From Acidobacteriota bacterium (GTDB lineage Bacteria > Acidobacteriota > Terriglobia > Bryobacterales > Bryobacteraceae): a stretch of DNA of 63,012 bases. Shown here piece after piece: positions 19,299 to 33,381 of this stretch; within the stretch, counting starts at the first letter, position 1, and each line of letters begins with the position of its first letter. The stretch is from positions 1 to 63,012 of the forward strand of contig CANIVU010000047.1 in the NCBI GenBank assembly GCA_947470805.1, in the 5' to 3' direction. A program made the translations under genes and the position numbers. Under the pieces are notes generated by a model. It did no database searches, was not told the DNA's origin, and worked only from the letters and a program-made list of their open reading frames with translations.

Positions 19299-20645
19299 TC
19301 AGGCGATGAGGGCGGGGACGGTGCGGCCGTGGATATCGGGCAGCGTGAAATCGCGGCCGGAGTAGCGGTAGGTCAGTTTCGTGTGGTCGAGGCCGAGTAG
19401 CTGAAGAACGGTCGCGTGTAAGTCGTGAACAGTAACTACGTTTTCGACGGCGTGGTTGCCGAGTTCGTCGGTGGCGCCGTAGATGAGTCCCTTTTTCGAG
19501 CCGCCGCCGGCGAGCCAGATGGTGAAGCCGAAGGGGTGGTGGTCGCGGCCGTCGCCGTTGCCGGTGTCGGGCGTGCGGCCGAATTCGCCGGCCCAGATGA
19601 TGAGGGTTTCGTCGAGAAGTCCGCGCGATTTCAGGTCCTTGATGAGGGCGGTGACGCCCTGATCGGTGACCAGTGCGTTGGTCTGGTGGCCTTCGCGGAG
19701 TTTGTCGTGCTGATCCCAGGTGCCGTTGTTGCCGCCGTAGAGGTTGGGCGGGGTGATCTCAACGAAACGAACCCCGGATTCAATGAGCCGGCGGGCGCGG
19801 AGGCATTGCAAGGAATAGGCGCGCTGGTGCTCGTTCTTGCTGTTTAGGCCGTATAACTCTTTGGTGGCTTCGGACTCTTTGGAGAGATCGAGAACGTCTG
19901 GCGTAAGGGCCTGCATGCGGTACGCCATTTCGCCGTTCTTGATGGCGGTTTCGATGGCGTCGTTGTTCTGGGACTTCGCGAGGAAGGCGCGGTCCTGGGC
20001 GGCGAGGGCTTGGAGTTGGGCGCGTTGAATGGGATCGGCCGCGGCGGGGACGATGTTTTCGACGGGGACGCCATCGGCACGGACGGACATGGCCTGGTGG
20101 GTGGCCGGGAGGAATCCGTTGGAGAAGTTTTCGAGGCCCCCGGGCGGGTTATCGCCGTGATTCAGAAGTAAGTAGCCCGGTAAGTTTTTGTTGGTGGAGC
20201 CGAGGCCGTAATTGACCCAGGAACCCAGGGAAGGGAAGCCACCGAAGTTCCGGCCGGTATGGAGAAAAACGTTGGCGCGGGCGTGGAGCGGGAACTCCGA
20301 TTTCATGCTGCGGACGACGCAGAGTTCGTCGGCGACGGTGGCGATGTGGGGGAAGAGTTCGCTGACGGGCAAGCCGGATTGGCCGTATTGCTTGAATTTC
20401 CAGGGGGAGCCGAGGTACTTGCGCTTGGGGCCGGAGACGTAGCTTTCCAGTTTTGCCTGCTGGCCGTCGAGCTGGGTCAGCTTCGGTTTGGGGTCGAAGG
20501 TGTCCATGTGGGAGACGCCGCCGGGCATGAACAGGAAGATGACGTTTTTGGCTTTGTGCTTCTGGACGGACTGGGCGTGGAGTGCCTGGAAGGCAAGGTA
20601 GCCGAAGCCGTTGGAGGCGGATTGGAGGAGTTGGCGGCGGGTCAT
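19299..20645 (-). CDS. DUF1501 family protein (sulfatase/phosphatase-like), Tat-exported
   Basis: A 448-residue protein with a Tat-like start (MTRRQLLQSASNGFGYLAFQ) and DUF1501 hallmarks: KNVIFLFMPGGVSHMDTFDPKP, LPVSELFPHIATVADELCVV, GSWVNYGLGSTNKNLPGYLL, ESGVRFVEITP, LIIWAGEFGRTPD and GRDHHPFGFT. DUF1501 resembles the alkaline phosphatase/sulfatase superfamily; its reaction is not established. It is common in Planctomycetes and Acidobacteria, usually beside a DUF1549/DUF1553 gene. Here the upstream neighbour (21 bp) is a transcription regulator, while a PSD1 gene lies 6 kb away in the same locus. Confidence 0.9.
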   Translation of the reverse strand: MTRRQLLQSASNGFGYLAFQALHAQSVQKHKAKNVIFLFMPGGVSHMDTFDPKPKLTQLDGQQAKLESYVSGPKRKYLGSPWKFKQYGQSGLPVSELFPHIATVADELCVVRSMKSEFPLHARANVFLHTGRNFGGFPSLGSWVNYGLGSTNKNLPGYLLLNHGDNPPGGLENFSNGFLPATHQAMSVRADGVPVENIVPAAADPIQRAQLQALAAQDRAFLAKSQNNDAIETAIKNGEMAYRMQALTPDVLDLSKESEATKELYGLNSKNEHQRAYSLQCLRARRLIESGVRFVEITPPNLYGGNNGTWDQHDKLREGHQTNALVTDQGVTALIKDLKSRGLLDETLIIWAGEFGRTPDTGNGDGRDHHPFGFTIWLAGGGSKKGLIYGATDELGNHAVENVVTVHDLHATVLQLLGLDHTKLTYRYSGRDFTLPDIHGRTVPALIA

Positions 20646-20666: not shown

Positions 20667-21779
20667 TCAGATCGAGCCGTCCGCCAGGTCCTGGGGGTAG
20701 AGCGACTCGATGTTGTCGCGGGTGAGGACCTTCATTTTGGCGAAGAGGGCGGGGACGGTTGCCTTTTTCTCCAGCATGGGAGCGATGAGTTTCCACAGCT
20801 GATTGCCGTAGTCTTCGGGTCCGAAGCCGATGGCGCCGGCGAGGGGGCTGTGGGGGCGTCGCAGTTCGCGGCGAATGTCGATGGCACCCCCGAAACTCCA
20901 GACCTGCCAGAGACGGGCGCGGCCGGCCTCTTCGATGGCCTGGATGGCGCCCATCGCGGCAGGGTCACTGACACACACGACGATGCCGCGGCGGGGGCGG
21001 GAGGAGCGCATTCGGGCGCGGAGGAGACGGAGACCGGTTTCAAAGGAACCACGGCTATCGAGGCGGGTGATCTGCAGTTCCTTCGCGCGCGGGGAGCGCT
21101 TCTCGAATGACTGGAGGAATCCGCTGAGGCGGGCGGCGGGGAGAGAGCCGAAGTGGATGTTGCCGACCAGGATGACTTCCTCAATGGGTTCTGCGGGGAG
21201 GAGACGCCAGGTGGACTGGCCGGCCATGACCCCGGCGGCATAGTTGTCGGCGCCGAAATAGGAGGCGCCGGCGATGGTCATGTCGATGGAGATGAGCGGA
21301 ATGCCGGAGCCGTGAAAGAGGCTGGCCAGTTCGGGGCCGGCGTCGGAGGCGGCTTGGAAGATGATCGCGACATCGACCTTCTCGCGAAGCATTCGCTGGG
21401 CGTTGCGGACGGTTTGGGAGACGCTGCCGCGATTGTCGAAGGAAAGGAGTTCGGCGCGGTGGGCGGAGGCGGTTTGGGTTATCGACTCGGTGACGGAGCG
21501 AGGAAATGGAAGGCGATTGTCGCGAGACGCGTAGCCGATGCGCGGGATGCGTTGTTCGCCCGTGGAGAAGAGGAGCGCGGCGGTATATCGGCCCGGGGAC
21601 GGCTGGGTGACCCAGCCGTGGTGTTCGAGTGTCCGGAGGATGCGGAGGACGGTGGCTTTGTTGATTCCGGACTGGCGTGAGAGTTCGACAAGGGTCGTGG
21701 ATTCACCGGGCAATTGCTGAAGGCGGGTGAAGACGTCGATCGCTCGTTCCAGATTGGTCAGGAGATAGGACGACGGCAT
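20667..21779 (-). CDS. Transcription regulator: IclR-type helix-turn-helix fused to a periplasmic-binding-protein domain
   Basis: The ATG at 21779 gives 370 residues; another ATG at 21806 would add nine, and neither has a clear Shine-Dalgarno. An IclR-like winged helix comes first (LTNLERAIDVFTRLQQLPGE, then LVELSRQSGINKATVLRILR and TLEHHGWVTQ). In place of the IclR ligand domain there is a LacI/ribose-binding-type fold: REKVDVAIIFQAASDAGPEL, IPLISIDMTIAGASYFGADN, GIVVCVSDPAAMGAIQAIEE and MKVLTRDNIESLYP. It probably senses a sugar in the cytoplasm. It diverges from a TonB receptor/sulfatase operon and precedes DUF1501. Two identical palindromes lie at and upstream of its start, so self-control and control of the divergent operon are likely (inference). 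Confidence 0.83.
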   Translation of the reverse strand: MPSSYLLTNLERAIDVFTRLQQLPGESTTLVELSRQSGINKATVLRILRTLEHHGWVTQPSPGRYTAALLFSTGEQRIPRIGYASRDNRLPFPRSVTESITQTASAHRAELLSFDNRGSVSQTVRNAQRMLREKVDVAIIFQAASDAGPELASLFHGSGIPLISIDMTIAGASYFGADNYAAGVMAGQSTWRLLPAEPIEEVILVGNIHFGSLPAARLSGFLQSFEKRSPRAKELQITRLDSRGSFETGLRLLRARMRSSRPRRGIVVCVSDPAAMGAIQAIEEAGRARLWQVWSFGGAIDIRRELRRPHSPLAGAIGFGPEDYGNQLWKLIAPMLEKKATVPALFAKMKVLTRDNIESLYPQDLADGSI

Positions 21780-21796
21780 GGTTCTGTGAAAGAACC
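21780..21796. promoter_or_regulatory. Candidate operator 1, GGTTC-N7-GAACC
   Basis: A perfect palindrome GGTTC-TGTGAAA-GAACC directly abuts the preferred ATG (21779) of the divergent regulator. The same half-sites and spacing recur at 21868-21884. Its position would let a bound regulator block its own transcription. Confidence 0.6.
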
Positions 21797-21867
21797 ACTC
21801 TATCATTCAGGCGGAGGATTACCAGGGTGCTCTTCGTAAAGTGCGTAGGAAAGTGTCGCTACTGGTC

Positions 21868-21884
21868 GGTTCTATCAGCGAACC
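21868..21884. promoter_or_regulatory. Candidate operator 2, GGTTC-N7-GAACC
   Basis: GGTTC-TATCAGC-GAACC, identical in both half-sites and in the 7-bp spacer length to the site at 21780, centred 88 bp away. It lies 68 bp before the start of the TonB receptor gene at 21952, in the region where its promoter should be. Confidence 0.62.
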
Positions 21885-21951
21885 CTTTTCTCGGTTGCGT
21901 TGTGGTTGTTCTGTCTGTTACCTTTGCCCAATTCCCAGGTGAGGTGTCTCC

Positions 21952-24900
21952 ATGTTCATGAGAATGATTGCAGCGGCGGCGGTGTTGACCGGCCTGATCG
22001 GTGGTTTGCACGCGCAAACCGTGAGCGGTTCGATTGTCGGTTCCGTTCAGGACCCGAGTGGATCGGCGGTGCCGGGGGCCGATGTGAAGCTGAAGTCCGT
22101 GGACACGGGCGTTGAGCGGAGCTCGAAGGGATCGCCAACGGGCGACTTCGCGTTCCGGAACATTCCGCCGGGTGAGTACACGCTGAGTGTGACGGCGCAA
22201 GGCTTCCGAAGACTGGAGCGAAAGGGCTTGGTGCTGAGCCAATCGGAGACGCTGGCGACTGGGATCAGTGCGTTGGAGGTGGGCGCAGTGACCGATACCG
22301 TGACGGTGACGACGCAGGGCGCGGTGGTGCAGACGGCGAGTAGCGAGCGCGGGAGCGTGATCACGGCGAGCCAGGTGGAACGGATTCCAGTGCGCGGGCG
22401 CAATGCGTGGGACCTGATGCAACTGATGCCGGGGACGGTGCCGGCGGCGGCGACGAATGAGTCGATTTCGCGCAATACGCGCCTGAATGTGAATGGCGGG
22501 CGGATCAACTCGCTGAGCGTCGTTGTGGACGGTATGGGGATGAACCAGATCGGAAACTTCGCCAATCAATTGATGAACATCAGTATGGACGCCGTGGAAG
22601 AGGTGAAGGTCCTGATGTCGAATTATCAGGCCGAGTATGGCCGGACATCCGGGGCGGAGGTGCAGTTGGCGACCAAGTCCGGCAAGCGGGAGTTCCACGG
22701 GTTATTCAGTTACTTCAAACGGCATGAACAGTTCAATGCCAACAGTTTCTTCAACAACCGGAACGGACAGGTGAAGGGCCGGTACCGGTTCAACACGTTC
22801 AACTACAACATCGGTGGCCCGATCTTCATTCCGGGGAAATTCAATACCGAAAAGAACAAGCTGTTCTTCTTCTTTTCGCAGGAGTTCTGGCCGGTAACGA
22901 CGACTAGCTCGGGCCGGCTGACGATGCCGACGGAACTGGAGCGAGCAGGGAACTACTCGCAAACGGTGGACCTGAATAACGCGTTGATTCCGATCCTTGA
23001 TCCCACATCCCGGCAGCCGATGCCGGGCAACATCATCCCGGCGAGTCGGATCGATGGCAGCGGCCAGGCCTTGCTGAAAGTGTTCCCGCTGCCGAACTTC
23101 ACGAACCGCCAGATTTCGGGTGGGAACTACAACTACATCTTCAATGCCGAGACTGCGACGCCGCAGCGATTCGGAACTGCGCGCATTGACTACAACATCA
23201 GTGCGAAGCATCAGCTCTACGGCACGTATTCGTTCTATCTGGACCGGCAGACAGGGTGGCAGGTGGCAACGACGAGCGCCAACTGGAATCAATTGCCGCG
23301 GACCTACTGGACGGATCCGAAGCTGCTGGTGGTGCGCTACAACAGGATCATTACGCCGACACTGGTGAACGAATTGACTCTCGGGGCGAATGGGCGGAAG
23401 GAGGGCGAAGACATTGCCGCCGACGCCTTGGCGCAGAGCACGCGGAGCAAGATTGGCTTTACGGCCGGACAGTTCAGTCCCGGTGTGAACCCGTTGGGGC
23501 TGATTCCGAACGCGACGTTCGGGGGCGTTCCCGGGGCGGCGAATCTGTTCATGGACAACCGGACGCCACTACTTTCGACGCGGCTGAATGTGCCGATCAG
23601 CGATAACATTACGAAGATCAAAGGCGGGCACGTGTTTAAAGCCGGCTTTGTGGCGGAACGGATCTTCGCCACCGCCAACGCGGCCAACCCGTTCAACGGC
23701 AGCTACTCGTTTGCGCGCGATGTGAACAACCCGCTGGATACCGGGTACGCCTATAGCAATGCCTCATTCGGCGTGTTCAGCTCCTACACCGAGCAGTTGC
23801 GGCGGAATACGAATACACAGTGGTTTACCTATGTGGAAGGGTATGTGCAGGACACGTGGAAGGTGAACAAGCACCTGACGCTTGACTACGGGCTGCGGTT
23901 CTCGCACCTGGGCAACGAGATTCTGCGCGGGAATATGGTGTCGACGTTCAATGCTGATTTCTGGGATCCGGCGAAGGCGGTGAAACTGGTGCAGCCTGCG
24001 ATTGTCGGAGGGCGGCGCGTGGGACAGGACCCGATTACGAAGGCGGTGTATCCGGCGACTGCGATTGGCGCGATTGCGCCGAACTCCGGGGATCCGGCGA
24101 ATGGGATGGTGATCCCGGCGATCAATAAATCCTATCCCGGTTCGCTGATCGACACGCCGGCGGTTCTGGTGGCGCCGCGGTTTGGTTTTGCCTATGACCC
24201 GTGGGGCGACGGCAAGACGGCGGTGCGCGGGGGCGTGGGGTTGTTTAACCAGCGGAAGGACAACGCCTGGGGCGGGCCGAATCCGCAGGTGCCGATCATC
24301 ACGACGCCGACGGTTTACTACGGCACGCTGTCGACGTTGCTCTCTTCCACCGGGTTCACGTTCCCTTCGACGATCACTTCGGTGAAGCGGGATTCCAAGT
24401 CGCCGTACGCGATGAACGCGAGCCTTTCGGTGCAGCGGAATATCGGGTTTGGGACGGTGGTTGACGTTGCCTATGTGGGAACGTTCGGGCGGCATCTGGA
24501 ATGGGTTCGGGATTTGAACGCGATTCCGATTGGGACGAATTTCAATCCGCGGAATGCGGATCCGACAAATGCCGCTGTGCCGTTGCCCTCGGCGTTTTTG
24601 CGGAAATATCCAGGATTCAACAATATCAACCAGGCGGACTGGGCGGCCAACTCCAGCTACCACTCGTTGCAGGTGACGGCGAACCGCCGCTTTGCGAAGG
24701 GCCTGCAGTTTGGAGGGGCGTGGACGTGGTCGAAGGCGATGGGGTACGTGGATACCGACGGGTCCGCAGTCAGCGCGCTGGTGGATCCCAAGATCTGGAA
24801 CTACTCGGTGGCCGGGTTTGACCGTACGCATGTGCTGAAGCTGAACTACCTGTGGGAGGTGCCGGGCGGACCGTGGAAGAACCTGGCGGCCAAGCATGTG

Positions 24901-25380
24901 CTGCACGGGTGGCAGTTGTCCGGGATCACCAGTTTCGTGACCGGTGCGCCGCTCGGCGTAGGGTACAACCTGGTGGTGAACCGGGATATTACGGGTACGC
25001 CGGATTTGGGCGCGCGCCTCAACGTACTGTCGAACCCGAATCTGCCGAAGGATCAGAAAACGTTCGGCCGGAATTTTAACACCGATGTCTTTGCACCGCC
25101 CGCGGTTGGCGCGATTGGCAACTCGGCGAAGTACCTGATTCGCGGACCCGGCGTGAACAACTTCGACATTTCGATGATCAAGAGCATTGCGGTGCGGGAG
25201 CCGTTTAAGGTGCAGTTGCGGTGCGAACTCTACAATGCGTTCAATCACACGCAGTTCACCGCGATTGATACGACGGCGCGATTCGATGCGCAGTCGCGCC
25301 AGGTGAACGGGACGTTCGGGCAGTATACGGCGGCCAGCAATCCGCGGCTGATGCAGATCGCGATCCGGGCGCAATTTTAG
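21952..25380 (+). CDS. TonB-dependent receptor with N-terminal carboxypeptidase-regulatory domain
   Basis: A 1142-residue outer-membrane receptor. GAGGTG sits 7 nt before the ATG at 21952, and a signal peptide follows (MIAAAAVLTGLIGGLHAQ). The regulatory sandwich spans about 25-105 (GSIVGSVQDPSGSAVPGADV, FAFRNIPPGEYTLSV), the plug about 125-240 (RIPVRGRNAWDLMQLMPG, NVNGGRINSLSVVVDGMGMN, EYGRTSGAEVQLATKSGK), then a barrel to the terminal IRAQF. It shares an operon with the sulfatase 15 bp downstream, suggesting uptake of a sulfated glycan or its breakdown products. The regulator with paired operators lies directly upstream on the other strand. Confidence 0.92.
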   Translation: MFMRMIAAAAVLTGLIGGLHAQTVSGSIVGSVQDPSGSAVPGADVKLKSVDTGVERSSKGSPTGDFAFRNIPPGEYTLSVTAQGFRRLERKGLVLSQSETLATGISALEVGAVTDTVTVTTQGAVVQTASSERGSVITASQVERIPVRGRNAWDLMQLMPGTVPAAATNESISRNTRLNVNGGRINSLSVVVDGMGMNQIGNFANQLMNISMDAVEEVKVLMSNYQAEYGRTSGAEVQLATKSGKREFHGLFSYFKRHEQFNANSFFNNRNGQVKGRYRFNTFNYNIGGPIFIPGKFNTEKNKLFFFFSQEFWPVTTTSSGRLTMPTELERAGNYSQTVDLNNALIPILDPTSRQPMPGNIIPASRIDGSGQALLKVFPLPNFTNRQISGGNYNYIFNAETATPQRFGTARIDYNISAKHQLYGTYSFYLDRQTGWQVATTSANWNQLPRTYWTDPKLLVVRYNRIITPTLVNELTLGANGRKEGEDIAADALAQSTRSKIGFTAGQFSPGVNPLGLIPNATFGGVPGAANLFMDNRTPLLSTRLNVPISDNITKIKGGHVFKAGFVAERIFATANAANPFNGSYSFARDVNNPLDTGYAYSNASFGVFSSYTEQLRRNTNTQWFTYVEGYVQDTWKVNKHLTLDYGLRFSHLGNEILRGNMVSTFNADFWDPAKAVKLVQPAIVGGRRVGQDPITKAVYPATAIGAIAPNSGDPANGMVIPAINKSYPGSLIDTPAVLVAPRFGFAYDPWGDGKTAVRGGVGLFNQRKDNAWGGPNPQVPIITTPTVYYGTLSTLLSSTGFTFPSTITSVKRDSKSPYAMNASLSVQRNIGFGTVVDVAYVGTFGRHLEWVRDLNAIPIGTNFNPRNADPTNAAVPLPSAFLRKYPGFNNINQADWAANSSYHSLQVTANRRFAKGLQFGGAWTWSKAMGYVDTDGSAVSALVDPKIWNYSVAGFDRTHVLKLNYLWEVPGGPWKNLAAKHVLHGWQLSGITSFVTGAPLGVGYNLVVNRDITGTPDLGARLNVLSNPNLPKDQKTFGRNFNTDVFAPPAVGAIGNSAKYLIRGPGVNNFDISMIKSIAVREPFKVQLRCELYNAFNHTQFTAIDTTARFDAQSRQVNGTFGQYTAASNPRLMQIAIRAQF

Positions 25381-25395: not shown

Positions 25396-26778
25396 ATGTC
25401 GATATCACGGAGAGAGTTCACCCGATTGATGGGGGCTGGCGCAATGGCGCCAGCAGCGGGCCGGCGGCCGAATATCATTTTCATCCTGGCCGATGACTTG
25501 CGCTTTGACGATTTGAGCGCCGTGGGCAACACTGTTCTTCGGACGCCGAACCTGGATGCCCTGGCGAAGAACGGAATCCGGTTCGAGAACGCGTTTGTGA
25601 CGACGGCGATCTGCTGTTGCAGCCGGGCCAGCGTGCTGACTGGGCAGCACATGCGGCGCCATGGGGTGGAGGATTTCAAACGCCCCTTGACTGCCGCGCA
25701 GATGGAGAAGACCTATCCGGTGCTGCTGCGGAAGGCTGGTTATCGAACCGCCTTCCTGGGAAAGTTTGCCGTCGGGCAGCCCACGCCGGGAAACCGTGAG
25801 TTGGCTTTGCCGAAGCACCAGTTCGATTTCTGGTACGGCTTTCCGCAGAGCATCGATTTCCGGCAGGAGATCGACGGAACTGTCCGGCATCTGACGCCGG
25901 TGATGACGGAGAAGGCGATCTCGTTTTTGCGCTCGACGCCGGCGGAGCAGCCGTTCCTGTTGTCACTGAACTTCAAAGAGCCGCACGGCCCGTTCAACTA
26001 CTTCGACCCGGACCGGCCGAGTCAGTACAAGGACGTCCCGATTCCGGCGCCCGCGACGCATACCCGCGCGGATTTTGAAGCCGAGCCGGAGTTTCTGCGG
26101 CGTTCCTTGAACGGGACTAAAGACGGCCAGTGGCCGGCCGATGCCGAGGCGCAGCGGTTGGAGGAGGCGCGTATCTCCTACCACCTGGTGGCGGGGATTG
26201 ATGACGCTGTGGGGAAGGTGATGGCGGCGTTGCGGGAGTTGAATCGGGACGGCGAGACGATCGTGATTTTCACGTCCGACAACGGGTCGTTCCGCGGGGC
26301 GCACGGGTTTACGGGCAAGTGGATCATGTATGAAGAGTCGATCCGGGTGCCGCTGATTATTCGCGATCCGCGCATGCCGGAGAAGGTCCGGGGGACGTTG
26401 TGCAAGGAGATGGCGCTAAACATCGACATGGCGCCGACGATGCTCTCCATGGCGGGCGTGGCGGCGGATTCGGGGATGCAGGGACTGGACCTGTCGCCGA
26501 TTGTGGCGGGGCGGAAGATGTCGACGCGCACCGAGTGGTTCTACGAACACACCTACAACACGGATGCGCCGCGGCTTCCGATTGTGCGGAGCGAAGGGGT
26601 GCGCGGGACGCGGTGGAAGTATATCCGGTATCCGGAGATGAAGCCCGTGTTTGAGCAGCTGTTTGATTTGGCGGCCGATCCGGTGGAGCGGCATAATCTG
26701 GCGACGAAGCCGGAGCATAAGGCAGTGCTGGCGCGGTTGCGGCGGCGATGTGATGCATTGAAGCGCGCGGCGGCGTGA
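25396..26778 (+). CDS. Arylsulfatase-type sulfatase, Tat-exported
   Basis: A 460-residue S1-family sulfatase with a Tat-type start (SRREFTRLMGAGAM). The metal-binding PNIIFILADDLRFDD (25-39) carries Asp33-Asp34. The formylglycine motif is C73-C-C-S-R77, where Cys replaces the usual Pro at the third position; Cys73 is the residue expected to be oxidised to formylglycine. Later landmarks are LLRKAGYRTAFLGKF, SLNFKEPHGPF, TIVIFTSDNGSFRGAHGFTG (metal Asp-Asn and a catalytic Lys further on) and the C-terminal EQLFDLAADPVERHNLA block. It should release sulfate from glycan esters in the periplasm. It lies 15 bp after the TonB receptor; AGGAGG precedes its start. No maturase gene is in the window. 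Confidence 0.93.
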   Translation: MSISRREFTRLMGAGAMAPAAGRRPNIIFILADDLRFDDLSAVGNTVLRTPNLDALAKNGIRFENAFVTTAICCCSRASVLTGQHMRRHGVEDFKRPLTAAQMEKTYPVLLRKAGYRTAFLGKFAVGQPTPGNRELALPKHQFDFWYGFPQSIDFRQEIDGTVRHLTPVMTEKAISFLRSTPAEQPFLLSLNFKEPHGPFNYFDPDRPSQYKDVPIPAPATHTRADFEAEPEFLRRSLNGTKDGQWPADAEAQRLEEARISYHLVAGIDDAVGKVMAALRELNRDGETIVIFTSDNGSFRGAHGFTGKWIMYEESIRVPLIIRDPRMPEKVRGTLCKEMALNIDMAPTMLSMAGVAADSGMQGLDLSPIVAGRKMSTRTEWFYEHTYNTDAPRLPIVRSEGVRGTRWKYIRYPEMKPVFEQLFDLAADPVERHNLATKPEHKAVLARLRRRCDALKRAAA

Positions 26779-26782
26779 GCGG

Positions 26783-29545
26783 TTATTGGAGGTAGAGGAA
26801 CTCTTTGGAGTTGAAGAGGGTGTGCGCGAGAGTGGGCCAGGGGTTGGCTCCGAGCGACTCGGCGAGCTGTTTATAGGCTTTGACTTCTTCGGCCGACGGT
26901 GGGCGGAGGAGGGCGGTTTCAAACATCTTCGTCAGGCGCTGTTCAAACGTTCCTTGAGGCAGGCGGTCGGCCCAGCCCTGGGCTTGCTGGAGGACGAAGG
27001 GATCGTTTAGCATTGCCAGGGACTGCGTAGGGACGTTGGTGACGTCACGGTTGCCGCGGGTTTGGAGCGGGGCGGGGAAGTCGAAGATCTCCAGGAATTT
27101 GGGGCCCTGCATGCGGGTCACCTTGACGTAAATGCTGCGGCGGCCGTTGCCGTCGAGCGGGCCCTGGAAGAGCCGGCGGTAGTCCGTTGGTTCCTTGCGG
27201 TGCGGCTGGATGCTGGGGCCGTACATGGTCTCGTCGAGGCGGCCGGAGACGGCGAGCAGCGTATCGCGGATGGACTCGGCGTCCAGGCGGCGGATCTGAT
27301 TTTCGGCCTGGAAGGCGTTAGTCAAGAGCAGTTGTTTGATGAGAGCCTTTGTGGACCATCCGTTGCGCATGAAATCGGCGGCGAGGTGGTCGAGGAGGTC
27401 GGGGTTCGAGGGCGGATCACTAAGGCGGCCGAAGTTATCGGTAGAGGTGACGAGTCCTTTGCCGAAGATGTGGTGCCAGACGCGGTTGACGTAGACGCGG
27501 GCGGTTAACGGGTTTTCCGGGCTGGCCATAGCTTCGGCGACTTCCAGGCGACCGGAGCCGGACTTGTCCACCTGGCGGAGCTTCTCGGGCATCAGGCTCA
27601 GGAAGTGCCGGGGAGCGGGACGGCCGGGGTTTAGGGCTTGGCCGCTAAGGAAGATGGGGTGATCGGCACCTGGATCCATGTCGGCCATGGCGTTGACGAC
27701 GGCGGGCGCTTCGAGTTTGGCTTCGATGGCGCGGTATTCGGCGGTCAGCGCTTCGAGGGCGGGAATGGCGTCGCGGCGGTTATTGAGGAGCCCGGTTTCG
27801 ATGGCGCGGTTGAGCGCGAGGACGTCGGCATCAGTGGCCTGCTGGGCGGCCCAGCGGCGGATGGCGCCGGCGAGGGGGACGGTGGTTTTGGTGGGTTTGG
27901 GAGCGTCGGAGTCGTTGTGATACCAGGCCTGGGAGACGACGAACCAGGAGCGGGTGATAGTTTCCGCCGGGTTGGTTTTGAATCTGCCGGGGCGTTCGGG
28001 CAGGCGGGGGTTGTCGGTAATCGTATCGAGTTCGAGATAGGTGCGGAGTGGTTGGTCGTTGCGGGTCGGTACCTTTTCGAGGTGGAGCGCGGGGCCTTCG
28101 ATGAGCTTATGGTCTTCGCCAATGACACAGTGGTCCATGACGGTGCGGTGGGCGGCGGCGTTAGCGCCGGACATTTGGAATGTCAGGAACTTTTTGTCGC
28201 GCGGGAGGATTGGGGAGCGGAGGGAACCGTTCCATTTGTCGGTCGTGGCGTTGGTGGCGAGGCCGTTGGGGAAAATGGTTTCGAGGGCCGAGTCGCCCGA
28301 GGTGGCGATGGCGAAGTCGCCCGCTTTCACTGGTTCCAGGCCGATGCCAGAGGCAGACCAACCGGGGGGAAGGCCATTGGCGAAATTGACTGACGGGGCC
28401 GGGAGTTGTTGGATCTCGATTGTCGATTGGCCGGCTTGCTGGAGCCAGAGCGTTGTCAGTTGCTGCCGGATGTTGGTCTTCAGATTTGAGAGGTCGGGCC
28501 GGGTTGGTTTGTTGAGCGTATGAACAACGGGGCGGGAGCTATTGATGATGCCGTAGAGGGCATAGTAGTCTTCGGTGGGAATGGGGTCAAACTTGTGGTC
28601 GTGGCAGCGGGCGCAGCTGACGGTGACGCCCTGGAATGCCTTGGTTAGGGTGTCGATCTGGTTGTCGACGACGTCGGTGCGGATTTCGGGGAACTGGTTG
28701 CAGTTATCGTGGCCCATTTCGCCGAAGCGCCAGAAGGCGGTGGCGAGGGTGGATTCGTTCTGACCGTTAGCGAGGCGCGGGGTTTTGAGCAGGTCGCCCG
28801 CGACGTGTTCCTTCACGAACTGGTCGTAGGGGAGGTCCTGGTTGAAGGCGCGGATGAGGTAGTCCCGATAGCGCCAGGCGCCGTGGATTTCGTAGTTCCA
28901 CTCGTAGCCGTAAGTTTCGGCATAGCGCATGAGGTCGAGCCAGTGACGGGCCCAGCGTTCGCCGAAGCGGGGGCTGGTTAGCAGAGCATCGACGTAGTTG
29001 GCATACGCGTTAGGCGAGGAATCGTTGAGGAATTGCGCGAGGAGTTCCACTGTAGGTGGGAGGCCGGTGGCGGCATAGGCAGCACGCCGGGCGAGGGTGC
29101 GTTTATCGGCGGATTTCGCGGCCGTTTTCAGGAATGCGTCGATGGGCTGGGGCGGCACCTGGCGGAGGGGCTGGAAGGCCCAGTGGGGGGCCTTGGTTTC
29201 CTTCTGGGGCTGAGCGTTGGGCCAGGGTGCGCCGCGGTCGAGCCACTGCTCGATGGCCGCAATTTCATCGTTGGAGAGTTTCCCGCCGGGGGGCATTTTG
29301 AGGGCGCCTTGTTGGCGAATGGCGGCCTTGATTTGTTCAGCGCCGGGGCCGCGGTGGCCACCTTTGAGGATGGCGTCGCGCGAGTCGAGGCGGATGCCGG
29401 ATAGCTGTTGGGCCGGGCCGTGACAGCCCTGACATTTGGTGGCTAAAACGGGACGGACCCGGCTTTCAAAGAAAGCCGGGTCCGTGTTTGCGTCCTGCGC
29501 GGTAGAGAGCGCAATGCTGCATACTGCGAGGACGAGTAATCGCAT
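26783..29545 (-). CDS. PSD1 protein with planctomycete-type cytochrome c (DUF1549/DUF1553)
   Basis: A 920-residue exported protein. A signal peptide (MRLLVLAVCSIALSTAQ) is followed by a PSCyt1 heme domain with CQGCH (38-42) and a distal-Met segment (MPPGGKLSNDEIAAIEQWLD). A DUF1549 block comes next (RRAAYAATGLPPTVELLAQF, FGERWARHWLDLMRYAET, YDQFVKEHVAGD), carrying a second heme motif, CARCHDHKFDPI. A carbohydrate-binding-like middle follows, then DUF1553 (LTARVYVNRVWHHIFGKGLV, SNPDLLDHLAADFMRNGWST, SLAMLNDPFVLQQA). The architecture implies electron transfer coupled to glycan processing, but no reaction is established. It lies 2 bp behind a TonB receptor gene in the same operon. Confidence 0.92.
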   Translation of the reverse strand: MRLLVLAVCSIALSTAQDANTDPAFFESRVRPVLATKCQGCHGPAQQLSGIRLDSRDAILKGGHRGPGAEQIKAAIRQQGALKMPPGGKLSNDEIAAIEQWLDRGAPWPNAQPQKETKAPHWAFQPLRQVPPQPIDAFLKTAAKSADKRTLARRAAYAATGLPPTVELLAQFLNDSSPNAYANYVDALLTSPRFGERWARHWLDLMRYAETYGYEWNYEIHGAWRYRDYLIRAFNQDLPYDQFVKEHVAGDLLKTPRLANGQNESTLATAFWRFGEMGHDNCNQFPEIRTDVVDNQIDTLTKAFQGVTVSCARCHDHKFDPIPTEDYYALYGIINSSRPVVHTLNKPTRPDLSNLKTNIRQQLTTLWLQQAGQSTIEIQQLPAPSVNFANGLPPGWSASGIGLEPVKAGDFAIATSGDSALETIFPNGLATNATTDKWNGSLRSPILPRDKKFLTFQMSGANAAAHRTVMDHCVIGEDHKLIEGPALHLEKVPTRNDQPLRTYLELDTITDNPRLPERPGRFKTNPAETITRSWFVVSQAWYHNDSDAPKPTKTTVPLAGAIRRWAAQQATDADVLALNRAIETGLLNNRRDAIPALEALTAEYRAIEAKLEAPAVVNAMADMDPGADHPIFLSGQALNPGRPAPRHFLSLMPEKLRQVDKSGSGRLEVAEAMASPENPLTARVYVNRVWHHIFGKGLVTSTDNFGRLSDPPSNPDLLDHLAADFMRNGWSTKALIKQLLLTNAFQAENQIRRLDAESIRDTLLAVSGRLDETMYGPSIQPHRKEPTDYRRLFQGPLDGNGRRSIYVKVTRMQGPKFLEIFDFPAPLQTRGNRDVTNVPTQSLAMLNDPFVLQQAQGWADRLPQGTFEQRLTKMFETALLRPPSAEEVKAYKQLAESLGANPWPTLAHTLFNSKEFLYLQ

Positions 29546-29547
29546 GG

Positions 29548-32500
29548 TTAGAACTGGAGATTCAAACCAAGCTTCAGGAATCGGGGCAAGTTACCCTGCA
29601 CCGGGTTGAGGCGGCCGAAGGCGCCGTTGGTCACGTCGACAGACTGAATACCGGTGAACCAGGGGTGGTTGAAGGCATTCACCATTTCGAAGCGGAACTG
29701 CATCTTCACGCGCTCGTGGATCGGGAAGATCTTCGAGATCGAAGCGTCCCAGTTCTCGTAGCCAGGCGTGCGGACGTCGGAGAAACGCAGGGGGAAGTTC
29801 CGGAGAGTGAACGGTTCCTGCGCGCCGACGAAGCGGTTGGTGGCGGGGCTCACCCAGAGATCGGTATTGAAGTACTTACCGAGCGTGGGGTTGTCGAGTT
29901 TGGCCGAACCGTTGGTGACCTGACCGGCGTTGGGGTAGTTGATCGTGGCACCAGCCATATAGGTGATGTTGGCGTTCATTTCCCAGCCGCCGACGATGAA
30001 GTCAGCAACTTTATTGAAGTTAGACCCGAACTTCTTCCCACGGCCGACGGGCAGCTGCCAGACGGTGGCGAGGTTGAACTTGCGCGGGATATCGATGTCG
30101 GGCGCCGACTGCTTGACGAGGCTGGAAGAGCCCGGATCGGAGAGGTTGAAATCCTGCACGTTGAGGAAGGCAACCCGTTCGAGGGTCTTCGAAGCGGTGT
30201 AGCTGGCCAGGAAGGTCAGGCCCTGGGAGAAGCGCTTGGACGCCTTGATCTGGAAGGAGTCGTAGCGCTGACGCCCGATGGGCAGGTTGTTGATGCTGAG
30301 CGGCGTGTACTGCGGGAAAGTGAACAGGAGGGTCTGGCGGGTGATTGTGGCACCGTTCAAAGCCGCGTTGTTCGGGATCAAACCACGCATCGGGTTCGGG
30401 ATCTGGGTGTTGTAGTAGGCGTTATCGATGGCGCCCGTCGAGGTCCGGCGACCCAGTTCGTTGGTGGGAATGAAGTTGGCGGTGGTGCCGATCGGCAGTT
30501 TGTTGATCTGGTTGCCGACGTAGGCCGCTTCAACCAGGACGCCGCCGGCCAGCTCGCGCTGGATGTCGATGGAGTACTGATGGGAGTAGGGCAGCGGACG
30601 ATTCTGCCAGTTCACACCGAGGCCCTGGCCAAGGAAGCTGGCGGCGCCTTCGGCATTGCCGACGGCGGAGAGCAACCGGCCACCGGCCTGGTTGGTGAAA
30701 GCGTTGGCAAGCGTCACAGCCGGGCGGAGGTTATCCACGGTGGTGGTGACGTTGGTGCGCTGCGAGTAGCCCTGGTTGGAACCGGTGGCGCTCTGGCCCA
30801 TGTAGAAGAGGCCATAGCCGCCGCGGACGACCCACTTTTCGCCAAAGCGATAAGCGAGGCCGACGCGGGGGGCGAAGTTGTTCTTGTCCGCGTTGAAGGA
30901 GCCTCGGGGCGCTCCGCCCTGGTTGGCGAACTTGACGGCGCCTTTGAGGTTCAAACCCGTGGCCTGAGCGGCGATGGGGCTGGCGGCGTTGAAGTCGAGC
31001 GACTGGACCATACGGTCATAGCGTTCCCAGGAGGGCGATTCGTAATCCCAGCGCATACCGAGGTTGAGGGTGAGGCGGTTGGTGATTTTGAAGTCATCCT
31101 GGAAGAAGCCGGCGTAGAAGAAGTTGACGAACGAAGGATCGATGTTCCGATCGGCGAAGCCCGAAGAGGGGTAGCCCAACAGGAACGTCGCCAGTTCGTT
31201 GCCGGCGGTGGCTTCGGCCTGGTTGGACACGCGCTGCGTCCAGTTCCGGGTGAAGGTGTAGTTGCCGGAGGCGAAGCCCGGGTTGGCCGTGTTGTTGTTG
31301 TAGCGGCGGGCTTCGACGCCAAACTTCATGAAGTGACGGCCGATGACCTTGTTGATATTTGGCTGAATGGTGTAGGTGTCGAACGCGCCGGTGTTCTGGA
31401 GCGTGCCGGTTCCCATGGCCTGGTAGGCGCCGTTGAATTCAAAGCGCGGGAAGGCGAGCTTGGTGAACTGGTTGACGAGAGCCGAATCGAAACCCAACTG
31501 CTTGGGGTCGAAACCGGTGCCGTAGGAGCTACCGGAGGACTCTTCCCAGCGGTTGAGGCCGAGGCGCAAGTCGAACGTGGTGGTGGGGTTCAACGTGGAG
31601 GTCCAGTTGAAGCCGAAGGTACGGCCGTTGCGGATCAGCGGCGCGTTGCCAGTGGGTTCGGCGGGGTTGGATTCGTTGACGTTCTTGACGAAGACGAGAC
31701 CGCGGTACTCACTAAACGGGTTCTGGCCGTAACGGAAGTTGGTATTGTTCTTGGCGTTGACCTGATAGTCCATGCGGCCGCCCCACTGGAACATGTCCGC
31801 AACCCAGCGCGAGGGGTAGGGGTAGTTGAGAACCTGGGCGGGGCCATTGCCGGCCGAGGTCGGAGCGGGGTAATACTTCAATGCCGCGGTGGCGATGGGG
31901 CTGATGCGCGAAGCCGGGATGATGTTTCCGGGGAACGCGGTACGGGTGCCATCGGCGAGCGTGGTCAACGGATCGTAGATCGAGACCAGCGCATTCTGGG
32001 CGTTGCGCAGAGTGGAGAAGTTGCCGCCGCGCCAGTCCATGGCGGGCACGGTCTGCACACCGGGGTCGGCCGAACGCTGGCGCATTTCTTCGTGCGAAAT
32101 CGTCCAGAAGAGCTTGTTGCGGCCATCGAGCAGTTTCGGAATCAGGACCGGGCCGGAGAGGAAGAAGCCGTAGGAGTTGATGTTGTTCGGCGACTTCTTG
32201 ATGCCGCCGGCGTTCAATTCCCACTGGTTGGCATTCAGCTTGTCGTTCTGGAAGTATTCAAACAGGTTGCCGTGCAACTGGTTGGTACCGGACTTGGTGA
32301 CCATGGTGACGATGCCACCACCGGTGCGGCCGTATTGCGCGTCATAGGTATTGGTCAACACCTTGAATTCCTGTACGGATTCCATGGTGGGGACGTGGAT
32401 GACGGTACGGGAGGAGCGCACGTTGGACATGCCGTCCAGCAGCACTTCGTTTTCACCGGAGCGGCCGCCGTTGACGGAGAACCCGGTGGTGCCGCCGATG

Positions 32501-33024
32501 TCGAAGGAGCGCAGATAGCGCCAGCCGCCGGCCTTGAACACGCCGGGGGCGGCCCAGGCGATCTGGAAGGGGTTGCGGCCCTGCGTCGGCAGGTTGGCGA
32601 TCAGTTGATTGTTGAGGGCCGTATCGCGGTTGGCGGTTTCGGTCTGCAGTTGGCTAACGGCGGCGTTCACCGTGATCGAGTCGGCGACGGCGCCCACCTG
32701 GAGCTGGACGTCGAGACGGGCCTTGTCAAGTGATTGGAGAATCACGTTGTCACGAACGACGCGGCGGAAGCCGTCTTTTTCGAAGGTGATGTTGTAGGCC
32801 GCCGGTTCGAGGAGAGGGGTGCTGTAAAGTCCGCCATCATTGGTGGACGTGGAGATTTTGGTGTTCTTGGCGAGGTTGGTGACGGTGACCTGGGCTCCCG
32901 GAATAGGGGCGCCGGACGGGTCGGTAACGATACCGGACAGGCTGGCGCGAACTTCCTGCGCAGACACTGCGGCACCGGCTAGTAAGCATGCTAACAAAGC
33001 ACGCTGCAAGACGAGGCGATTCAT
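29548..33024 (-). CDS. TonB-dependent receptor with N-terminal carboxypeptidase-regulatory domain
   Basis: The frame extends upstream, but the ATG at 33024 follows TTTGGAG and opens a signal peptide (MNRLVLQRALLACLLAGAAV); 1158 residues. The regulatory sandwich is about 22-105 (SLSGIVTDPSGAPIPGAQVT), the plug about 125-240 (LIANLPTQGRNPFQIAWAAP, GGRSGENEVLLDGMSNVRSS, QYGRTGGGIVTMVTKSGTN), and the barrel runs to the terminal LNLQF. Its codon use looks less G/C-skewed than that of its neighbours. It is first in an operon with the cytochrome-bearing PSD1 gene 2 bp downstream, and has its own promoter-like sequence 50 bp upstream. Ligand unknown. Confidence 0.92.
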   Translation of the reverse strand: MNRLVLQRALLACLLAGAAVSAQEVRASLSGIVTDPSGAPIPGAQVTVTNLAKNTKISTSTNDGGLYSTPLLEPAAYNITFEKDGFRRVVRDNVILQSLDKARLDVQLQVGAVADSITVNAAVSQLQTETANRDTALNNQLIANLPTQGRNPFQIAWAAPGVFKAGGWRYLRSFDIGGTTGFSVNGGRSGENEVLLDGMSNVRSSRTVIHVPTMESVQEFKVLTNTYDAQYGRTGGGIVTMVTKSGTNQLHGNLFEYFQNDKLNANQWELNAGGIKKSPNNINSYGFFLSGPVLIPKLLDGRNKLFWTISHEEMRQRSADPGVQTVPAMDWRGGNFSTLRNAQNALVSIYDPLTTLADGTRTAFPGNIIPASRISPIATAALKYYPAPTSAGNGPAQVLNYPYPSRWVADMFQWGGRMDYQVNAKNNTNFRYGQNPFSEYRGLVFVKNVNESNPAEPTGNAPLIRNGRTFGFNWTSTLNPTTTFDLRLGLNRWEESSGSSYGTGFDPKQLGFDSALVNQFTKLAFPRFEFNGAYQAMGTGTLQNTGAFDTYTIQPNINKVIGRHFMKFGVEARRYNNNTANPGFASGNYTFTRNWTQRVSNQAEATAGNELATFLLGYPSSGFADRNIDPSFVNFFYAGFFQDDFKITNRLTLNLGMRWDYESPSWERYDRMVQSLDFNAASPIAAQATGLNLKGAVKFANQGGAPRGSFNADKNNFAPRVGLAYRFGEKWVVRGGYGLFYMGQSATGSNQGYSQRTNVTTTVDNLRPAVTLANAFTNQAGGRLLSAVGNAEGAASFLGQGLGVNWQNRPLPYSHQYSIDIQRELAGGVLVEAAYVGNQINKLPIGTTANFIPTNELGRRTSTGAIDNAYYNTQIPNPMRGLIPNNAALNGATITRQTLLFTFPQYTPLSINNLPIGRQRYDSFQIKASKRFSQGLTFLASYTASKTLERVAFLNVQDFNLSDPGSSSLVKQSAPDIDIPRKFNLATVWQLPVGRGKKFGSNFNKVADFIVGGWEMNANITYMAGATINYPNAGQVTNGSAKLDNPTLGKYFNTDLWVSPATNRFVGAQEPFTLRNFPLRFSDVRTPGYENWDASISKIFPIHERVKMQFRFEMVNAFNHPWFTGIQSVDVTNGAFGRLNPVQGNLPRFLKLGLNLQF

Positions 33025-33046
33025 TTGGACTCCAAAGCGAATGAGG

Positions 33047-33063
33047 TTCCCATAGTTCGGGAA
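33047..33063. promoter_or_regulatory. 17-bp palindrome TTCCC-N7-GGGAA in the receptor leader
   Basis: TTCCC (33047-33051), a 7-bp spacer, GGGAA (33059-33063). It lies between the proposed -10 box and the receptor start, so it could be an operator or a short leader hairpin. The architecture (5-7-5) equals that of the two GGTTC sites at 21.8 kb, but the half-sites differ. Confidence 0.35.
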
Positions 33064-33073
33064 GACTTGCAAG

Positions 33074-33102
33074 ATTATATCCCATTTTCTTAATGTATTC
33101 AG
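33074..33102 (-). promoter_or_regulatory. Promoter-like sequence for the TonB receptor/PSD1 operon
   Basis: On the minus strand a perfect TATAAT (33079-33074) is preceded at 17 bp by CTGAAT (33102-33097), which keeps only the TGA core of a -35 box. It begins 50 bp before the start codon. The surroundings are AT-rich against a GC-rich background. Confidence 0.5.
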
Positions 33103-33234
33103 GCCCTTAGTACTTTGGTTGGAGTATTGACACGCGATGGGGCTAGACCGGGTTTGGGTACTGAGTTGCCATGGTGGGGCCTCGGTTTTTTCTCTACCTT
33201 TAGGTATGCAAAACAACAGCGAGGGCAGATCCGC

Positions 33235-33381
33235 ATGGGTCATTCTTTGGCTTTAATGTTCGAAACCGTCGCACAGGTCCTTCACCAGTCCATCGATCCA
33301 GTGCCAGAGCGCTTCTTTCACTTGATGTCGGGGCTGGTGTTGATCGCCGTGGGATTCCGGATGCGGAAGAGTTTCGAGTAG
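33235..33381 (+). CDS. Possible small protein, 48 residues
   Basis: A short frame begins at ATG 33235, 9 nt after a GAGGG that could act as a ribosome site. It encodes an amphipathic start (LMFETVAQVLHQSIDPVPER) and a hydrophobic stretch (LMSGLVLIAVGF) followed by a basic end (RMRKSFE), as in a small membrane peptide. I do not recognise it. The surrounding 370-bp gap (33025-33395) otherwise holds the receptor promoter, a palindrome and a 9-bp tandem repeat. It could be a chance frame. Confidence 0.25.
   Translation: MGHSLALMFETVAQVLHQSIDPVPERFFHLMSGLVLIAVGFRMRKSFE

Follow-up and report, generated by a model that had tools for sequence, protein, structure and literature searches.

The two palindromes that lie between a regulator gene and a divergent receptor gene in the window (the whole stretch of 63,012 bases analysed here) are very probably operators of the adjacent regulator, a hybrid protein in which an IclR-type helix-turn-helix is joined to a ribose-type periplasmic-binding-protein domain; this prediction comes from sequence comparison. 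The proximal palindrome (GGTTCTGTGAAAGAACC; 21780-21796) is found directly upstream of the regulator start codon, and the centre of the distal palindrome (GGTTCTATCAGCGAACC; 21868-21884) lies 76 bp ahead of the receptor start codon. Both have the form GGTTC-N7-GAACC and are assigned to no strand, their spacers are TGTGAAA and TATCAGC, and 88 bp separate their centres. A sequence-only reading of this DNA had reported two such sites at these positions and this distance, which was confirmed by a direct check of the sequence. That reading had one site abutting the regulator start, and the proximal site indeed ends at the base adjoining the likely ATG (21779-21777, minus strand). It also placed the distal site at the receptor promoter; a scan of 21700-22000 on both strands with the sigma-70 consensus found no promoter.

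The exact pattern GGTTC-N7-GAACC occurs twice in the whole window, at these two positions only, compared with an average of 0.15 exact sites in shuffled windows, none of which (0 of 100) contains two. In the 8.7 Mb genome, 9 exact sites were counted versus 4 for the backwards-read control pattern, and if 9 sites were scattered at random, some two of them would come within 88 bp of each other with a probability of about 7e-4. The pair had been called hard to explain by chance, and these numbers bear that out. The genome-wide count suggested at that time shows the motif to be rare. Of the 7 other exact sites, 4 (L001, L005, L007, L009) are located in open frames with Pfam matches. Those seven further sites are what speaks for a coincidence of two unrelated palindromes, a practically negligible explanation in view of the shuffles, the closeness of the pair and the conservation of its layout in relatives. 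The two other genome sites most like those of the window were also considered as further targets, and both are unconvincing: the L007 site lies within the first ~15 codons of its frame, a methyltransferase frame, and L004 has no recognised neighbour gene except a weak trypsin-like match upstream. A third copy with one mismatch (GGTTCCGTTCAGGACCC; 22039-22055) falls within the receptor gene. It is 171 bp away from the distal site, out of the 11-bp phase, and is probably due to chance.

The regulator gene (20667..21779, minus strand) was annotated by Pfam, a structure model and sequence matches. Residues 19-68 of its product match HTH_IclR (PF09339; 45.3 bits, cut-off 22) and residues 100-342 match Peripla_BP_4 (PF13407; 59.8 bits, cut-off 35.1), while the body also matches PF00532 (39.5 bits, cut-off 22.2). 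The IclR C-terminal effector domain (PF01614) is absent from the 6 Pfam matches of the regulator at E 0.001, and no LacI-type helix-turn-helix is found among its Pfam matches. Judged by these domains, an IclR head without the PF01614 body would not be classed as a full IclR-family member. The AlphaFold model, with 54 aligned sequences, has a mean pLDDT of 91.9, and the fold of the modelled body matches ribose- and other sugar-binding proteins. There is one copy of the regulator in its own genome (E 1e-10), and a match (E 1e-30) is present in 83 of the 200 genomes searched from the bacterial family, the own genome included. An alternative regulator ATG exists at 21806, and the longer frame would place the proximal site inside the gene. 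In the orthologue L086/L012 (about 55-56% identical), the site GTTTCTCCAGGAGAAAC is followed by G and then by ATG; this start codon one base past the site favours a start at 21779 rather than at 21806 in the window.

On the other side of the sites, the presumed target is an Oar-like TonB-dependent outer-membrane receptor (21952..25380, plus strand), identified by Pfam (CarboxypepD_reg, Plug, OMP_b-brl_4). A sulfatase gene (25396..26778, plus strand) follows it after 15 bp and is presumed from Pfam and spacing to belong to the same operon. By the same two kinds of evidence, a DUF1501 protein (19299..20645, minus strand), encoded 21 bp after the regulator, is possibly co-transcribed with the regulator. 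Just past the sulfatase, the minus strand of 26783-33243 encodes another Oar-like receptor as well as a PSCyt/PSD1 protein, so that two receptors are present here around sulfatase-associated genes.

Taken as one reading, an operator pair combined with autoregulation and with repression of the receptor and sulfatase genes under sugar-type induction appears likely. In this process, each 17-bp site would be occupied by the IclR heads of a dimer. Autoregulation would be mediated by the proximal site, which overlaps the start region of the regulator, and the distal site would act in the leader or promoter region of the receptor, keeping the divergent receptor-sulfatase operon repressed as long as no sugar-like ligand is bound to the periplasmic-binding-protein body.

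Among the orthologous loci examined, exact palindromes upstream are kept only by the 98% identical regulator of L040, whose locus differs from window positions 21701-22000 by 2 bases, neither of them within a site. Besides the window locus and L040, one exact match was discovered (L038), ~400 bp after the regulator gene and not upstream. The exact string GGTTCNNNNNNNGAACC is absent at the loci of orthologues with 55-62% identity. An exact-motif search in relatives was therefore given up as a conservation test, because the letters have changed and only the geometry is kept. For instance, L086 contains GTTTCGCTGGAAGAAAT and GTTTCTCCAGGAGAAAC with 88 bp between the sites, and L087 (62% identical) contains GTTCCTCTCAGCGAAAC and GTTACTCTGAACGAAAC with 87 bp between them; both have a sulfatase homologue on the same side as in the window. 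Thus, of the check on orthologues that the sequence-only reading had proposed, the letters failed but the geometry and the spacing of 87-88 bp held. In another locus (L028), GGTTC-N7-GAAAC occurs before and after the regulator gene (positions 1389 and 2567), perhaps indicating a second downstream target.

In order to summarize the neighbourhood, five window proteins were searched against the upstream DNA (mostly 1.4-2.2 kb) of 97 non-redundant regulator loci out of 179, a set that includes the window locus twice (L010 and its near-duplicate L040). A divergent receptor homologue is found upstream in 21 of the 97 loci, in 4 of these more than 1.6 kb away, and a divergent PSD1-type protein and a divergent sulfatase homologue are found in 9 and 4 loci, respectively.

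For motif discovery, the incomplete L013 and L172 and the near-duplicate L040 were removed to keep intact heads (94 loci), and 78 regulators below 85% protein identity, the window's included, were retained. A palindromic expectation-maximisation search from random starts in the 78 upstream regions returned GTTTCGCA-N-TGCGAAAC, on which the 6 best of 60 starts agree. With the model refitted from this seed, at least one site was found within 320 bp upstream at 10 bits in 68 of 78 hybrids (4.7 in shuffles) and two sites in 41 (0.1 in shuffles), and these numbers become 71 and 45 of 78 at 9 bits. The window's own locus is one of the 10 loci without a site at 10 bits. Its sites score 2.0 and -2.8 bits in the family model, below the threshold, and its half-site letters are atypical of the hybrid family. 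Hence the window pair is outside the counts of 68 and 41, and was entered by hand in the distance list used below.

A model-free test was performed on 69 loci, with seven duplicate or incomplete loci left out. Two like-half palindromes at spacer 7 were found in 14 loci (shuffled mean 0.70, maximum 2), and at spacer 5 in 13, nearly as frequent because the symmetry extends inward. The inward symmetry had also raised other spacers in a first spacer test, where 41 of 69 loci had exact 5-base arms at spacer 7 (mean of 20.0 and maximum of 32 in shuffles) and 28, 35, 38 and 29 loci had them at spacers 1, 3, 5 and 9; that test was replaced by the paired-site test and the motif search. In a search of the phylum at E 1e-40, 44 of 396 genomes contained relatives, and the best 30 loci from these 44 genomes, all outside the bacterial family of the window and unused in training, served as a held-out set. 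At 9 bits, 24 of 30 held-out loci contain a site and 11 contain two (2.7 and 0.1 in shuffles). Five of the 6 loci without a site make up one subgroup (L217-L221), which comes from another family of the class and has a head beginning with VLSKALDILELL; its operator form may differ.

The palindromes might instead act at the RNA level, forming hairpins or a terminator in leader transcripts, and the distal one did score as terminator-like in a scan. However, the stem has only 5 pairs around a 7-base loop, shuffles give 0.4 terminator-like hits on average, and many relatives with the same 17-bp geometry have A+T-rich arms and hence weak stems, which leaves this explanation highly improbable.

If the sites are operators, as we prefer, their letters are expected to vary with the recognition helix of the adjacent protein, and half-site letters do track recognition-helix residues in 71 loci. 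The 10 loci in which helix position 8 (numbering starts at 0) is serine instead of phenylalanine or leucine all have one GTCTC arm or more. Glutamate at position 3 goes with ATTGC in 4 of 4 loci, two of which (L048, L058) rest on hand-picked sites, and serine at position 13 goes with C as the fourth half-site base in 11 of 14. The helix stretch NKATVLR of the window regulator also occurs in L191, which has one GGTTC arm. As the permutations ignore relatedness, this correlation may be taken as a lead. From the above, the earlier assignment of the pair to an IclR/periplasmic-binding-protein hybrid is upheld by the HTH_IclR and Peripla_BP_4 matches, by the paired 5-7-5 layout in 41 of 78 hybrids and by letters that follow the helix.

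The operator type is already known; what sets this case apart is the hybrid body, together with the frequent occurrence of long phased pairs. As given in the main text of Suvorova and Gelfand 2021 (PMC8222616), the motif of IclR group 1 is GKTYCRYW3-4RYGRAMC, with a subgroup GTTYCRYW3RYGRAAC, and sites are often paired, the tandem sites lying mainly 18-22 nt apart. The window arms GGTTC/GAACC with 7 bases between them match the odd-length form of GKTYC/GRAMC, and a 17-bp palindrome is common to both. The inner RYW3RY is fitted only partly by the window spacers, whereas the consensus of the relatives (GTTTCGCANTGCGAAAC) fits it and also fits the subgroup motif. In contrast to the tandem distance of 18-22 nt, the window pair is 88 bp apart and the pairs of relatives are mostly 76-124 bp apart. 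Short pairs are limited to 2 of 43 in relatives, at 23 bp, with none at 18-22, and to one held-out pair at 20 bp. The words “periplasmic” and “acidobacter” have 0 occurrences in the main text of PMC8222616, and neither a hybrid body nor long phased pairs were found in the portions of that paper drawn on here.

Since IclR-family proteins share the motif type (PMC8222616), the sites could be operators of another regulator, such as a conventional IclR protein of the same genome, where 4 matches to the IclR C-terminal domain reveal other IclR proteins. This is very unlikely, because the sites accompany the hybrid family in several bacterial families, the letters follow the recognition helix of the hybrid, and conventional IclR loci are mostly without such sites under the same model (22 of 29). 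In this control, taken from the same bacterial family at 9 bits (29 of 30 loci; L251 was dropped for its short upstream DNA), a site is found in 7 of 29 loci and two or more in 3, with a model trained on hybrids that could miss other half-site types. A 22-bp spacing is found in 2 of the 3 loci with two or more sites. Long pairs, at 79 and 132 bp, are present in 2 of 29 conventional loci and are thus not exclusive to hybrids.

LacI/GalR-type repressors have a sugar-type periplasmic-binding-protein body and use looped operator pairs at turn-phased distances. The body type and the loop-sized operator distances are alike in the window regulator, but its head is IclR-type and not LacI-type. AraR (GntR head) and XylR (AraC head) are fused to LacI/GalR-like sugar-binding bodies and follow the same design idea of a foreign head on a sugar-binding body; the head here is IclR-type. 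An IclR-type repressor, like the head of the window regulator, is PheR of Sphingobium: when it is deleted, TonB-dependent receptor genes go up, and its footprint covers 44 bp at one promoter (PMC13273656). No paired long-distance operators are described for PheR in the portions of that paper drawn on here. In the titles and abstracts of the open-access papers that the searches listed, no IclR-head/periplasmic-binding-protein-body hybrid and no IclR looping were found.

To figure out how the two sites may work together, we summarized the distances of 43 neighbouring pairs, the window's included. They gather near 77, 88, 98-103, 109-115 and 120-124 bp, and a period of 11.3 bp fits them best, with R 0.63 compared with a mean of 0.27 for the jitter null, in which 0 of 2000 runs came as high. 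When proximal and distal positions are re-paired between loci, the periodicity is lost (0 of 2000 as high). The phasing persists when the window pair is omitted and the threshold is varied from 8 to 13 bits (26 to 55 pairs), and also when a consensus adapted from published motifs is used (18 to 38 pairs). For 12 held-out distances, some from loci that are close relatives, p is 0.009, 0.003, 0.005 and 0.03 at periods of 11.0, 11.2, 11.3 and 11.5. With relatives collapsed into 17 clusters (60% identity) or 13 clusters (55%), the mean R of 0.74 and 0.80 exceeds the 99% null of 0.64 and 0.71, and at coarse collapse, with 9 clusters (50%) and 5 clusters (45%), it is below the 95% null. The distance differences between nearest relatives have a mean cosine of 0.08 for multiples of 11 (18 values), which is not clearly phased.

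In vivo lac loops have about 11 bp per turn (PMC8501960), and distances phased at ~11 bp, held-out loci included, fit looping. Same-face, loop-sized distances are seen in the relatives taken as a group, and the single distance of the window, 88 bp or 8 x 11, does not by itself decide. We give even chances to a loop between its two sites, in which two bound dimers may pair across the intervening 88 bp, equal to 8 turns at 11 bp per turn. The looping raised by the sequence-only reading is thus supported by the phasing in relatives and held-out loci, but not by the nearest-relative test, the coarse clusters or the correlation with intergenic length.

That correlation is an argument for a loop-free arrangement in which the same regulator has two independent operators, each serving one of the divergent promoters, a real possibility that we would nevertheless on the whole bet against. 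In 15 hand-picked loci, the distance between sites is larger where the intergenic region is longer (rho 0.91), which leaves constant-distance cooperativity unsupported, and by the logic of PMC4494728, as far as that paper is used here, such tracking points to one operator per gene. Same-face phasing could then arise if each site is fixed in position relative to RNA polymerase, and site positions of the IclR family, in the text of PMC8222616, oscillate with a period of roughly one DNA turn when measured from the gene start. The nearest-relative differences likewise give the phasing no support. However, the bunching of distances and the loss of periodicity after re-pairing speak against independent sites.

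For the hybrid family as a whole, which is found in several families of the phylum, we tentatively suppose, with the balance tipping slightly against it, that an IclR head was joined to a sugar-binding-protein body, that LacI-like looping between operators ~7 to 11 turns apart was gained with the body, and that helix and operator letters changed together. This suggests that when the sensor domain of a repressor is swapped, its operator layout may change as well, with long phased pairs in place of short tandem ones. One palindrome pair has in this way led to a testable regulatory family, with predicted operators in about a hundred relatives, which supply a draft helix-to-base code. With their natural spacing variants at about one-turn steps, these relatives amount to a natural experiment in which looping can be studied outside model bacteria, and the family offers a way into the control of nutrient receptors in little-studied bacteria.

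Two further observations concern variants of the regulator loci. Two loci (L042, L013) encode a 60% identical relative that seems to have no DNA-binding head and matches only from residue ~150 on. In a subgroup of six (L053, L054, L045, L096, L167, L169), the regulator gene and a PSD1-type gene diverge across a very short gap, and two of them (L053 and L096) contain two sites 23 bp apart, resembling ordinary IclR tandem sites.
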